Below are positions 1,864 through 7,221 of a DNA stretch of 64,000 bases, piece by piece. The stretch comes from Candidatus Margulisiibacteriota bacterium. Its GTDB lineage: Bacteria; Margulisbacteria; Riflemargulisbacteria; GWF2-39-127. The position numbers and the translations under genes were made by a program. The notes under the pieces were generated by a model, which was not told the DNA's origin, did not search any database, and saw nothing but the letters and a program-made list of their open reading frames with translations. The DNA is taken from assembly GCA_003242895.1 (NCBI GenBank), contig QKMY01000024.1:1-64000 (forward strand). Direction: 5' to 3'. Within the stretch, counting starts at the first letter, position 1. Each line of letters begins with the position of its first letter.

Positions 1864-4194
1864 TCAAATTTGTCTTTGAGTTACAACCTCTTTGAAGAAT
1901 TCGATAGTTTCCCTAACTCCTTCGTCATTGTTAAATAAGATAGCGTTTCTTTCCAGAATTGTTTTTTTAATTTTTTGACGAAAAAGTTTGTTTGTTCCGA
2001 GTTTAACAGCCAAGCGGATATACTCGGTATTATTCTTTGCGATACAATCGGGTAATCCCATGAGCTGGTAATAGCCGTATGTCCAGCGGGCCCGTAAATA
2101 CCGCGATGGAAGCGTTACAATCGGCGTGCCGCAGGCCAGAGCCAGCAGACTGGTGTTGCCGCCTCCGAAATGATAGGTATCCAATACCACAGCTGAATGC
2201 CTAATAATTTGTAAGAAATCATCTTTATTTGCTTGAGGCAAAAAGCGAATTCGGTTAAGGACGGCAGCAGGCATAGTTTTTGCAAATCTTTCATTTATAT
2301 TAAGATTAAAATTATTTTTTATATGAAAAAAATAGATTATTCCTTGTGGGTCCTGTTCTAAAATGCCTGCTACAGCTTCATCAAAATCCGGATGTAATTT
2401 AATCGGGTTCATAGGACATACATAAATATTGCCTGTAGGGTCAAGTCCTAATGTTTTTTTTGTTTTTAATTTCACCGGAAAGGCTGGCTTATCGTACATG
2501 ATAGGCATTCCTTTTATGCGTATGAGCTTTTCGGTATAATGCTTTTGTGCTGTAGGAATTTCAAAGATTTGTCCCGAGATATAATAATCTAGGGTAGGAA
2601 TTCCTGTGGTATCAGGGTGTCCCATTAAGACACATTGTATGGTTGCCAGGCGAGTAAACGCGAGAAAATAAGTAATGTTACTCATCCCGATATCCAAATA
2701 AACTAAGATATCTAACTGATGACCAGCAATGAGTTGTTGGTTATAAATAATATTATCCGAATTTAACAGGGAAAAATTGTCTGCGTATTCTTTTATAGTT
2801 TCATGTACCGGATCTATTTTATTGTTAGTACCATAAACATGAATTTGAAAGCCATCTTTTGGAATATTGATAATTAAATTTTTGTAAAAATTAGTAACTG
2901 AATGCTGGCGAAAATGAGTGGAAATAAAACCTATTTTTATTTTTTTGCAAGTTTTATTTTGATCGAAAGGGTCGTAAACCGGAGCTTCACTGCCGATTTT
3001 TGGTTGTTTATGGTTATCAACTACGTATCGTATAGATGGTTTCAACATTTTAGCAATATGAGCGTTGATTTTTACGTTATTGTATCCTTGGTAAACCAGA
3101 TAAAAAGTTCCTAAAACACTATGGAGCTGAGAATCTGGTATTTCCCAGTTATCATTAATTCCTTTCTGTACGTTTTTGTGAAGACGTTTTCTCCAGTGAA
3201 GCAAGTCTTGTTTGTTATTATAAATAGGTGGCAATAATAAGGCATTGTTAATTTTAATGAGGTCCTTTAGCTGTCGAAATTGTTTATTTCGATGTAACTG
3301 CATGGCATCTTTTATATAATTATTATTCTGGAGAATATTACAAATATTATAAAAAGCTTGATGGAAATCAGGTTTTAAGAAAATAGCCCTTTTGTAATTT
3401 TCAATAGCGTTTGGGAGATTTCCTTGCTCTACAAGTGCGTTGCCAAGATTATTGTAAGTTTGCTGGCAAGCAGGGTTTAAGGCAATAGCTTTCTTGTAGT
3501 TTTCAATAGCTCCTTCAAGGTTCCCTTGTTCTTGGAGAACACTACCCAGATTATTGAAAGCTTCATGATAATCTGGTTTTACGGCGATAGCCTTCTGATA
3601 ATTTTCAATAGATTCCTCAAGGTTCCCTTGTTCTTTAAGTGCAATGCCCAGATTATAGAAAGCTTCGGGGCAAGCAGGGTTTAGCGCGATAGTTTTTTTG
3701 TAATTTTCAATAGCTCCTTCAAGATTCCCTAGTTCTTTAAGTGCGACCCCCAGGTTGTAGAAAGCTTCGGGGTAATCAGCGTTTAAGGAAATAGTCTTTT
3801 TATAATTCTTAATTGCTTCCTCCAGATTTCCTTGTTCTTGAAATGTGCTGCCCAGATTATAGAAAACTTCGTGGCAATCAGGATTTAAAGCAATGGTCTT
3901 ATAATAATTTTCAATAGCTCCCTCAAAGTTACCTTGGTTTTTCAAAATTATTGCTAATGTTAAATATGCATCAGGAAATTCAGGAATTATTTGAATAACT
4001 TTTGATATTAATTCCTGTGCTTTCTCATTATTATTAGTATTACCATAGATTGTTCCCAACAAATATAGCCCTGTTACGTTTTCAGGGTCTACTTCAAGAA
4101 TTTTATGACATAGTTCTTTTGCTTGCTGCATTTGCCCTGTGTTATAGCTTTCTATGCACTCATTTAAGCTTGTTTGGATGTCGATATTTGTCAT
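1864..4194 (-). CDS. TPR / GT41 (O-GlcNAc transferase-like) protein glycosyltransferase
   Basis: This 776-residue protein has about nine N-terminal TPR units (residues 1-300) and a C-terminal GT41 catalytic region (about 410-770). Visible signatures are the HFRQHSV segment near residue 428, which aligns with the active-site histidine region of OGT/SPINDLY. Next comes the GHPDTTGIPTLDYYISG segment, equivalent to GYPGTSG...DYIITD in OGT, and then GGGNTSLLALACGTPIVTLP near 680, the nucleotide-sugar binding loop. There is no signal peptide or membrane segment, so it should act in the cytoplasm. TPRs in this family hold the acceptor protein. It is the intact copy of the tandem pair and is divergent from a large sequon-rich protein at 4627. 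The exact sugar and acceptor cannot be told from sequence. Confidence 0.85.
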   Translation of the reverse strand: MTNIDIQTSLNECIESYNTGQMQQAKELCHKILEVDPENVTGLYLLGTIYGNTNNNEKAQELISKVIQIIPEFPDAYLTLAIILKNQGNFEGAIENYYKTIALNPDCHEVFYNLGSTFQEQGNLEEAIKNYKKTISLNADYPEAFYNLGVALKELGNLEGAIENYKKTIALNPACPEAFYNLGIALKEQGNLEESIENYQKAIAVKPDYHEAFNNLGSVLQEQGNLEGAIENYKKAIALNPACQQTYNNLGNALVEQGNLPNAIENYKRAIFLKPDFHQAFYNICNILQNNNYIKDAMQLHRNKQFRQLKDLIKINNALLLPPIYNNKQDLLHWRKRLHKNVQKGINDNWEIPDSQLHSVLGTFYLVYQGYNNVKINAHIAKMLKPSIRYVVDNHKQPKIGSEAPVYDPFDQNKTCKKIKIGFISTHFRQHSVTNFYKNLIINIPKDGFQIHVYGTNNKIDPVHETIKEYADNFSLLNSDNIIYNQQLIAGHQLDILVYLDIGMSNITYFLAFTRLATIQCVLMGHPDTTGIPTLDYYISGQIFEIPTAQKHYTEKLIRIKGMPIMYDKPAFPVKLKTKKTLGLDPTGNIYVCPMNPIKLHPDFDEAVAGILEQDPQGIIYFFHIKNNFNLNINERFAKTMPAAVLNRIRFLPQANKDDFLQIIRHSAVVLDTYHFGGGNTSLLALACGTPIVTLPSRYLRARWTYGYYQLMGLPDCIAKNNTEYIRLAVKLGTNKLFRQKIKKTILERNAILFNNDEGVRETIEFFKEVVTQRQI

Positions 4195-4626
4195 GATTTC
4201 TCTGCTGATACATTATTTTAATTCTTTTATAGTATCATTCCTATACCGAAGGGGCAACCAATCAATCTTTTCACTCCGGTCATTGTTTTTCGCATTTCTA
4301 ATGAGAATATTTTAACTATGAGTACTGTGTTTTTTCTTACGATCCGTTGCCAAAATTGATTCTTATTGAAAACGCAAAGGAATTATCTGGGTTTAAGATA
4401 AGTTAAATTAGGGCATAACGCTATTAGCGTGGCAGATGTTTTATGATAAAACAGAAAAAATCGATACAATTTTTTTAAATAAAAACCAGATATATAGGTA
4501 ATCAGTCAATGCTTTGGAGGTGATAAGTACTAAAAAATGCCAAACTCAAACAATTAAAAGGATTATATTCTTAATTATTTAGAGCCTTATTGTGCTTCTA
4601 GATTAACTTTGAAAGGAAGAAAAAAT
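4195..4626. other. Divergent intergenic region
   Basis: This 430-base AT-rich gap separates the minus-strand GT41 gene from the plus-strand sequon-rich gene. It holds the candidate minus promoter at 4229-4257, a small ACGCT/AGCGT palindrome at 4418-4430, and an orphan strong ribosome-binding sequence GGAGGTGAT at 4516-4524. The orphan site is followed by a six-codon frame (ATG 4537 to TAA 4557). No gene of normal length fits here. Confidence 0.5.
4229..4257 (-). promoter_or_regulatory. Candidate promoter for the GT41 gene
   Basis: Read on the minus strand, TTGCCC and TACTAT are separated by 17 bases and lie 35-63 bases upstream of the start codon at 4194. The spacing is ideal and the boxes are moderate matches to the vegetative consensus. 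Confidence 0.4.
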
Positions 4627-7152
4627 ATGGCCGAGATACAGGGTGCATCATATAATGAAGCTACTAAAACCATCACAATCGGGAATGATTTCGATTGGGG
4701 TAATTTGTCTACGGACTCAGATACAGAACTCATCGATCAGATGGGGATAACAGATACTGAAAATCTAACAATAGTGTTCAACGATGACGATGGTGTTAAT
4801 TCTACTAATAAGTTTACTGTTAGTGAAGCAGGAAATGTTGTTATAGATAACGACGGAACGAATAGTGTTAAAGCCCAAGCTAACCTACGAGTTCAAAAAG
4901 GAGGTTACGGGAGTGTTACTATTCATGATACCATGGATGCCGGAACTGCCGGGATGAGCGAGAACCTTGAAATCGGAGAGGGGCTTAGTGCAACGGTTGA
5001 CAGAAATCAAGTACATACTATAGGGAATGCTTCTACTACAATCGATAGAAATATTTCAGGGCAATTTAGCTACAGCGCTAACAATACAACAGTCCAAGGC
5101 AATATTACTGCACAGAATATGGATGCCAGCGGAGAGGCTGTTGTCAGTTCTGCTTATACCCTCAATGATAATGATGAAGGAGGGACAGGGTCAACAAATA
5201 TTAATTTCAATGTATCCCAGACCTATAATATGGGTGCAAGTACAGAGAATGCCGCGGAACTAAATGCGGTTAATGCTATGGAAATCAATATTACCGGGGC
5301 CGCCAACAGGACATACAATGTTAGCGGTGATATTAACCAGAATCTGAACTTCAGCGTTGGAGAAGCATTGACTGATAGGGATATTATGATGAATGAATTG
5401 AAAGTTAAGTTTTTGGAATTGTTTAATAATTTCTCCTTAGGCAGCGAAACCTCAGGCGGAGGAACTCCTACCGGTTATATTGACAAAAATAATCAGTATA
5501 ACGCGTTCACCCAAGAAGAGCTTAGCCAATTGAGCAATGGCAAGATATCGGATGAGCTGATGAACAAGATGGCTGTTGAGAAAAATGGTTCAATTTCTGT
5601 ATCGTACGCAACAGAAAAACCTGAAATACCACATGACTTTTTTGGGTTTGAAAACGGTAAAATTCAGCTAGGTTCTGATTTTTTTAATTCAGATGGTACG
5701 CTCAATAGTGAAAAATTCATGCAGGCATATTTCCCGCTAACTACACAAACAGGTAACGCGCAAAATCAAGATCTACTGGCCCAGGTCACCGTAGGGTCAG
5801 ACGGGACAATCCAACTAAATGCTACTTCACAGGTGGTCACCGGTGCTGACGCAAATGTAAATGTAAATACAATTCTCAATAATTGTTCTTCCCGCCAGGT
5901 ATGGCATGATGATGTTGCTATGCAGACTTATTATTCAGTTACCTTAGAGGCCCTCAAAGCCGGTGGAGTCGATACAAGTAAGATCCCTGGAAAGAGTGAT
6001 ACCGAGAAGAGCCAGTGGGTCTCGCAAAATATTGGTGAAGTTAATGGTCAGTTTGGGCTGCAGCAAGCACTCGCCAGACATGGTCTAAATGTAGGCGGTG
6101 TAAGTAATTCGGCGTATGCATCTACTACTTTTGGTGCCTTGAGAGCCGATCACGTGATAACTTCCGTAGCGGAGCAAAGAACCGTGAATGGGATATCCTG
6201 GAATGCAGTCGCCGCATCATCCGATAGCAATGCCGGACAATGGACAACTACGGGTGGGAATGGTCGTGGTGCAAATGCATTAATGATTACCGGACCTGAT
6301 GGCAAGGACCTTGGAATGGCTATACTGTCCTGGAATGGGCGAGAGTTTTTGACAGAGAGTACCCAGAATAATTTTAATGTAGGGAGGGGGGACCGCCTAC
6401 AAGAAGCCACGGTTACCTCAAATATCGCGGTTTCCACGCTTACCGTAAATATTAACGATATTAGTTCCAGCTCTACAGGTGATACAAGCGATACCGGCGA
6501 TTCAGGGAACAGTATCCCTAGTGTTGACGGTAACCAGCGCGAGATATCCTCTGAGACTGATACTTCTACCATGGCAGTTAAAACCTATTCTAAACTAACC
6601 TCGCTTGAGCATGATCCGGTAAATCATCTTAGTATAAATATAAAAGATAAAAACGGTAATGATGCTTCTGTTAATTCTACTTTGAGTGTTAATCAGAATA
6701 CGCAGGGGACTGCAGGGACGTCATTGGCCGGAGGATCATTTGTTGCCGGAAACAAACTGATGAGTAATATCAATATGACAGCCAGCCAGAATACAAAGGT
6801 TACGGTTGACGGTGATAGTGTTGATAACTTGCAGGTGCGAGCTGCAAATGTAACGAATGTCAGCGGTACAACACAATCAATTCAAAGAGAGAATACCGGC
6901 AAAGCAGTTACCGGAACTGAGCAGTACAATCTTACAACAAAGGCTAGTTCCAGATATGCGGGGGCTTCAGACAAAAACTGGATTAATCAGGCTCAATTTG
7001 AATCTAATTTAATAATAAATGATTCATTTGACTTTGAGGGAGCTGCCGCCAGCCTGGCAAATCAAGATTTGATAAGGACACTTAAAGAGAACCAATATGG
7101 TTCGGAAGATACCGGTATTATCCCATTAGGAGGAGCAGGCGGTAAGGTATAG
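4627..7152 (+). CDS. Large Ser/Thr/Asn-rich repetitive protein, adhesin-like, unknown function
   Basis: The protein has 841 residues from ATG 4627, preceded by AAAGGAAG at good spacing; an in-frame TTG at 4609 would overlap that site and is less likely. It has no classical signal peptide or membrane segment. Residues 1-260 and 600-790 are low-complexity beta-type sequence rich in S, T, N, G, D and V. Between them (about 270-590) lies a more globular part with the only cysteine (NNCSSRQVWHDD), aromatic residues and several conserved-looking motifs. I count about 22 NX(S/T) sequons. I do not recognise the family. Composition resembles surface adhesins or structural fibres, but export would need a non-Sec route. 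Its divergent neighbours are two GT41-type glycosyltransferases, which suggests it could be their substrate (inference). A strong terminator follows. Confidence 0.7.
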   Translation: MAEIQGASYNEATKTITIGNDFDWGNLSTDSDTELIDQMGITDTENLTIVFNDDDGVNSTNKFTVSEAGNVVIDNDGTNSVKAQANLRVQKGGYGSVTIHDTMDAGTAGMSENLEIGEGLSATVDRNQVHTIGNASTTIDRNISGQFSYSANNTTVQGNITAQNMDASGEAVVSSAYTLNDNDEGGTGSTNINFNVSQTYNMGASTENAAELNAVNAMEINITGAANRTYNVSGDINQNLNFSVGEALTDRDIMMNELKVKFLELFNNFSLGSETSGGGTPTGYIDKNNQYNAFTQEELSQLSNGKISDELMNKMAVEKNGSISVSYATEKPEIPHDFFGFENGKIQLGSDFFNSDGTLNSEKFMQAYFPLTTQTGNAQNQDLLAQVTVGSDGTIQLNATSQVVTGADANVNVNTILNNCSSRQVWHDDVAMQTYYSVTLEALKAGGVDTSKIPGKSDTEKSQWVSQNIGEVNGQFGLQQALARHGLNVGGVSNSAYASTTFGALRADHVITSVAEQRTVNGISWNAVAASSDSNAGQWTTTGGNGRGANALMITGPDGKDLGMAILSWNGREFLTESTQNNFNVGRGDRLQEATVTSNIAVSTLTVNINDISSSSTGDTSDTGDSGNSIPSVDGNQREISSETDTSTMAVKTYSKLTSLEHDPVNHLSINIKDKNGNDASVNSTLSVNQNTQGTAGTSLAGGSFVAGNKLMSNINMTASQNTKVTVDGDSVDNLQVRAANVTNVSGTTQSIQRENTGKAVTGTEQYNLTTKASSRYAGASDKNWINQAQFESNLIINDSFDFEGAAASLANQDLIRTLKENQYGSEDTGIIPLGGAGGKV

Positions 7153-7177
7153 AAATCTAGACTGGTAACGTTATTTG

Positions 7178-7221
7178 GAGCTGCACGGTTTCGCTTAGCG
7201 AAACCGTGCAGCTCTTTTTTT
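7178..7221 (+). terminator. Strong rho-independent terminator
   Basis: A perfect 15-bp stem (7179-7193 with 7199-7213, loop CTTAG) is followed by seven T residues. It lies 26 bases after the stop of the 4627 gene and ends that transcript. Confidence 0.95.

Follow-up and report, generated by a model that had tools for sequence, protein, structure and literature searches.

A TPR-GT41 glycosyltransferase gene of a divergent clade lies head to head with a gene for its candidate substrate, an Asn/Ser/Thr-rich orphan protein, in a Candidatus Margulisiibacteriota genome

Results and Discussion

A candidate enzyme-substrate pair

Two genes for putative TPR-GT41 protein glycosyltransferases, and a divergent gene for an 841-aa protein rich in Asn, Ser and Thr (N/S/T-rich), were found at the start of a 64,000-nucleotide stretch of Candidatus Margulisiibacteriota DNA (hereafter the window), which begins at base 1 of a 143.5-kb contig in a 3.35-Mb genome that is ~100% complete. 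Judged from the gene neighbourhood, the 841-aa protein is most likely the dedicated or principal substrate of the head-to-head GT41s. Given the precedents of FlmG, the GT41s of flagellin islands and HMW1C, together with the neighbourhoods of this GT41 branch, the most likely single reading, which we hold tentatively, is a cytoplasmic protein glycosyltransferase with a cis-encoded substrate that is exported independently of Sec and probably carries O-linked sugar. Features of the locus are listed in Table 1.

Table 1. Coordinates of the candidate pair and its parts within the window.
Feature	Position	Strand	Basis or remark
Putative TPR-GT41 protein glycosyltransferase, 776 aa, divergent GT41 clade	1864..4194	-	PF13844 and TPR families; PDB profile matches to TtOGT, SPINDLY, human OGT and NGT; tree
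TPR array, ~residues 10-310 of the 776-aa GT41, likely substrate-binding	3264..4167	-	Pfam TPR matches; role by analogy with FlmG (PMC7591256)
GT-B catalytic region, ~residues 415-750 of the 776-aa GT41, with K599 and UDP-binding loop N680-T681	1945..2952	-	Alignment to human OGT K842
Second TPR-GT41 paralogue, 543 aa visible, cut by contig start	1..1629	-	73% identity to the 776-aa GT41 over the common part
Intergenic stretch between the divergent GT41 and 841-aa genes, ~430 bases	4195..4626	.	Promoters expected; convincing consensus absent
841-aa orphan, candidate substrate; acidic (pI 4.35), Cys-poor (one Cys), 89 kDa, N+S+T 31%	4627..7152	+	No Sec signal; no family match
Residues 1-260 of the 841-aa protein	4627..5406	+	Beta-rich by low-confidence model; 13 of 23 sequons
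Residues 421-600 of the 841-aa protein, probably a separate globular domain	5887..6426	+	Sequon-free; G+C higher
Strong intrinsic terminator, 25 bases past the 841-aa stop	7177..7215	+	18-pair stem and T run

The first-pass annotation, which had placed an 841-residue open reading frame at position 4627 beside two TPR-GT41 genes, was correct in both coordinates and content; the frame opens with an ATG preceded, at a distance of ~8 bases, by the ribosome-binding site AGGAAG. The 776-aa GT41 and 841-aa genes are not joined in an operon but lie head to head on opposite strands, which counts against their pairing. The terminator makes the 841-aa gene a single-gene unit, and a promoter scan of the intergenic stretch found nothing above chance. 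The neighbours of the pair are the second GT41 gene, the rest of which was not found elsewhere in the assembly, a methyltransferase gene and carB, as well as the housekeeping gene dnaE. At three other loci (L074, L075 and L078), two or three TPR-GT41 genes from two GT41 clades were also seen clustered, with alternating orientations.

The 776-aa protein is a GT41 enzyme of OGT/SPINDLY-type architecture

The GT41 assignment and divergent arrangement proposed by the first-pass annotation were upheld, as PF13844 matched the 776-aa protein with 83.7 bits (cut-off 25) and a TPR array is fused to the GT41 domain, as in OGT and SPINDLY. Residue K599 aligned with K842 of human OGT, the UDP-phosphate-binding Lys, and T681 with T921; the Lys, Asn and Thr of the UDP site were invariant across the clade of the window GT41. 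The TPR array and the UDP-site Lys and Thr are thus shared with OGT and SPINDLY, but the clade is divergent in that D554 of human OGT was not conserved in the alignment. When the clade profile was compared with PDB chains, it scored 111 bits with TtOGT (5djs, which we take to be this enzyme), 104-105 bits with SPINDLY, 95-102 bits with human OGT and 93 bits with NGT/HMW1C.

In the tree, the window GT41 grouped with those from G028, G025 and G012, three further genomes of the phylum, in one clade with support of 100/99. Three further GT41 genes of the window's own genome fell into another, canonical clade, and among the GT41s compared, the canonical ones of the same class were 22-26% identical to the window clade.

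The 841-aa protein is an orphan with the composition of an exported protein

Asn, Ser and Thr make up 31.4% of the 841-aa protein, the highest value in a sample of 304 ORFs, each at least 300 aa long, from 745 kb of its own genome, and the next-highest ORFs were FliD, a Sec-type surface protein and flagellin. Inspection of the N-terminus agreed with the statement of the first-pass annotation that a Sec signal is absent. The protein had no match in Pfam (including the Flagellin_N and FliD_N domains), NCBIfam, PHROGs or PDB, and no homologue was found in its own genome, in the 54 further genomes of the phylum that were searched (55 in all), or in collections of genome contigs, viral contigs, phages and plasmids. 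This orphan status counts against a pairing with the GT41.

Structure prediction yielded unusable models, both for the whole protein from a single sequence (AlphaFold pLDDT 37.5) and for residues 390-610 folded without an alignment (pLDDT 39), and a PDB fold search with the latter returned no match. The middle region around the single Cys was also considered as a possible cysteine peptidase, but nothing was found to support this and the idea was dropped. By codon adaptation, the gene does not stand out as very highly expressed.

The genome encodes a type I exporter (a TolC-ABC-HlyD set) and an RTX protein as its substrate, as well as flagellin, FliD and FliS-like genes, so that Sec-independent routes exist or are likely, and export of the 841-aa protein can reasonably be inferred from its N/S/T-rich composition, which is typical of exported filament and surface proteins. 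The glycine-rich nonapeptide repeats of RTX proteins were not seen in the 841-aa protein, and C-terminal signals are unrecognisable from sequence alone. The genome's own flagellin and FliD genes are located elsewhere on the contig, apart from the 841-aa gene. It is very unlikely that the 841-aa protein is cytoplasmic, or a phage or mobile-element protein unrelated to the surface: the missing Sec signal and the lack of a homologue in any collection searched fit such a reading, but this lack extends to the phage and plasmid sets, the housekeeping genes carB and dnaE lie nearby, and the composition is that of exported filament proteins.

Another contig of the same genome (L140:16020-20000, contig C51) holds the first part of a large protein, whose N-terminus is LEPR-XLL-like; an HlyD-like gene and further genes, possibly for its exporter, precede it.

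Sequons follow composition, and Asn-linked modification is unlikely

The first-pass annotation had described the protein as sequon-rich, with about 22 NX(S/T) motifs. The count itself was close (23), but it was not above chance, as shuffled sequences of the same composition gave 18.8±3.6 (P=0.15), with the motif just as frequent in reverse ([ST]xN, n=24). Because the total is at the level of composition, the sequon argument has little weight, and sequon enrichment was dropped as evidence for an enzyme-substrate pair. Residues 1-260 were mildly enriched (13 sequons where 6.7 were expected), and the densest window of 260 residues had P=0.02 after correction for scanning; residues 421-600 contained none. 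Polar i,i+2 pairs ([NST]x[NST]) were generally raised in residues 1-260, as in beta strands, and the sequon excess there arises partly from beta-type alternation.

These counts bear on the possibility, for which the first-pass annotation had offered HMW1C as a parallel, that hexoses are transferred to Asn in the sequons of the 841-aa protein. This is unlikely, although the clade profile scored 93 bits with NGT/HMW1C structures (97-111 with OGT), the NCBIfam NGT model gave a match of 2.3e-18 to the 776-aa GT41, and residues 1-260 hold their excess of sequons. The sequons follow composition, the OGT and SPINDLY scores were slightly above those of NGT, a TPR array occupies the place of the AAD domain, and the NGT match reached 66 bits against a family cut-off of 1000. 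An adjacent adhesin with a Sec signal and a TpsB partner, as in HMW1C-like loci (the first category), was not found at the locus. By its sequence, with TPRs, no AAD and a score far below the NGT cut-off, the 776-aa GT41 is not an HMW1C.

Related GT41 genes of the phylum adjoin large N/S/T-rich proteins

GT41 was present in 6 of the 55 genomes of the phylum. The GT41 gene of G025 is divergent from a gene for a large N/S/T-rich surface protein with a Sec signal (1634 aa) and has mnmA on its opposite side; that of G028 has the same flanks, with a homologous Sec-signal surface protein that is cut by the contig end after 179 residues. The GT41 gene of G012 is cut at its 5' side and fell outside the count of upstream genes. 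A divergent large N/S/T-rich protein was thus found at 3/3 loci of the clade with a visible upstream gene, a count that includes the window and the partial G028 partner and in which two of the three arrangements are probably homologous, whereas 3/110 (~3%) of the other long ORFs of the window's own genome were equally N/S/T-rich. This neighbourhood gives moderate support to an enzyme-substrate relationship.

Two features of these loci count against a pairing in the window: no homology was found between the G025 and G028 surface proteins and the 841-aa protein, and both partners have Sec signals, unlike the 841-aa protein. Copies of the N-terminal domain family of these surface proteins occur elsewhere, including one on another contig of the window's own genome, near which no GT41 of the window type was found. 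Such surface proteins are confined to a few clusters per genome, so that adjacency to GT41 is unlikely to have come about twice by chance, unless one arrangement was inherited; the G025 and G028 loci may reflect a single ancestral arrangement.

At the G025 locus (L030:10374-20000), two consecutive giant surface proteins with Sec signals (1634 and at least 1574 aa) lie beside the GT41 gene and combine YadA-head-like regions with long repeats of the type ITSDKIADGAI.

Outside the phylum the association recurs in part, in Desulfobacterota with flagellar genes

Two comparison sets were named Pseudomonadota and Desulfobacterota after their centre loci (Kiloniella and Desulfobacterales). The branch of the window GT41 was found in 29/398 Pseudomonadota genomes, and among the 35 Pseudomonadota loci N/S/T-rich proteins made up 1/43 of the long ORFs adjoining GT41 and 2/145 of those not adjacent to it; the absence of a general adjacency rule for the branch in these loci counts against the pairing. 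The single N/S/T-rich neighbour was an autotransporter, with the GT41 gene 206 bases behind it. At another Pseudomonadota locus (L092:8877-11818, G208), a GT41 gene of the branch stands directly behind a type IV pilin gene and may encode a pilin glycosyltransferase.

The same branch occurred in 10/395 Desulfobacterota genomes, and at 4 of 10 loci the GT41 gene had flagellar filament genes (flagellin, FliD or FliS) around it. In L177 it directly follows flagellin, and FliD lies downstream; in L174 and L179 it is two genes away from flagellin; and in L178 it is beside a FliS-FliD-FlaG-flagellin series. Three of the remaining six loci are a single locus that recurs in related genomes. In G007, too, flagellin is preceded by a GT41 gene, there a canonical one. 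Exported N/S/T-rich proteins are recurrent but not universal neighbours of the GT41 branch; they belong to unrelated families, and some do not depend on Sec.

A serious possibility, almost as likely as the favoured reading, is that the neighbours in the window are coincidental. The 841-aa protein would then be unrelated, unmodified and lineage-specific, and the GT41 pair would act on other proteins, whether flagellar, cytosolic or at the surface. The orphan status of the protein, the lack of an operon, the lack of enrichment for N/S/T-rich neighbours in Pseudomonadota and the three further GT41 genes of the genome, two of which are near sugar or Maf-like genes, all point in this direction, whereas the arrangement shared by all three informative loci of the phylum, set against the rarity of such ORFs in the genome, argues for a connection. 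In favour of the enzyme-substrate reading, the flagellin locus of the same genome (contig C24) carries its own Maf-like gene, so that the GT41 pair may have a target other than flagellin.

Relation to known systems and proposed mechanism

FlmG of Caulobacter is a TPR flagellin glycosyltransferase whose TPR domain binds flagellin before export and whose donor is pseudaminic acid (PMC7591256). It resembles the window pair in combining a cytoplasmic TPR and GT domain with an N/S/T-rich substrate that lacks a Sec signal and is modified before export (in the window, a candidate), but the FlmG substrate is flagellin, whereas the candidate here is an orphan protein adjoining the enzyme. GT41 genes also occur in the flagellin glycosylation islands of Enterobacteriaceae (PMC4875605), where, as may hold for the window, a SPINDLY/OGT-type GT41 gene stands beside that of an exported substrate; those enzymes adjoin flagellin and mostly carry methyltransferase domains, whereas the window GT41 adjoins a non-flagellar orphan. 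HMW1C/ApNGT with the HMW1 adhesin (PMC3983070, PMC3012730) share with the window a GT41 gene beside that of a large N/S/T-rich protein and a related catalytic domain, but HMW1C lacks TPRs and contains an AAD, the HMW1 adhesin is made with a Sec signal and pairs with a TpsB protein, and the sequons of the 841-aa protein are not above chance. On the favoured reading, the window pair would be a new variation on GT41-substrate systems, not an unrecognised HMW1C system.

Under the favoured enzyme-substrate reading, the minus-strand genes would encode cytoplasmic TPR-GT41 protein glycosyltransferases, and the 841-aa product would be an acidic, N/S/T-rich, exported surface protein. Still unfolded in the cytoplasm, the 841-aa polypeptide would first be captured by the TPR array, and the GT-B domain would then add single sugars from a nucleotide sugar, with Ser/Thr more likely than Asn as the acceptor because of the OGT-type architecture. 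Export would follow glycosylation and bypass Sec, for example through type I secretion. We infer that the 841-aa protein is modified and reaches the surface by such a route, and likewise the linkage and the sugar. A broader scheme, which we consider quite unlikely, would place this TPR-GT41 clade between OGT and NGT, with multi-site glycosylation (Asn sequons included) of cis-encoded giant surface proteins that would form a Sec-independent glycosylated coat.

GT41 enzymes connect eukaryotic O-GlcNAc and SPINDLY signalling with the glycosylation of bacterial adhesins and flagellins, and to our knowledge the substrate is not known for most bacterial TPR-GT41 proteins. In this little-studied phylum, the clade and its cis-encoded candidate substrates offer pairs suited to direct co-expression, which could reveal how TPR arrays recognise substrates bound for export and where O-linkage gave way to N-linkage.

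Other observations

On a stretch of the window's own genome (C45:133000-171000, loci L035 and L015), NeuB/NeuA-like nonulosonic acid genes accompany three Maf-like genes, and the stretch also carries a TPR-GT41 gene of the canonical kind. FliD proteins of unusual length were seen in the same genome (L193:5692-9231, contig C24; 1180 aa) and in G007 (L032:12331-15405; 1024 aa); the former gave a sub-cut-off match to a galactose-binding domain of the F5/F8 type, and an F5/F8-like stretch is visible by eye in the latter.
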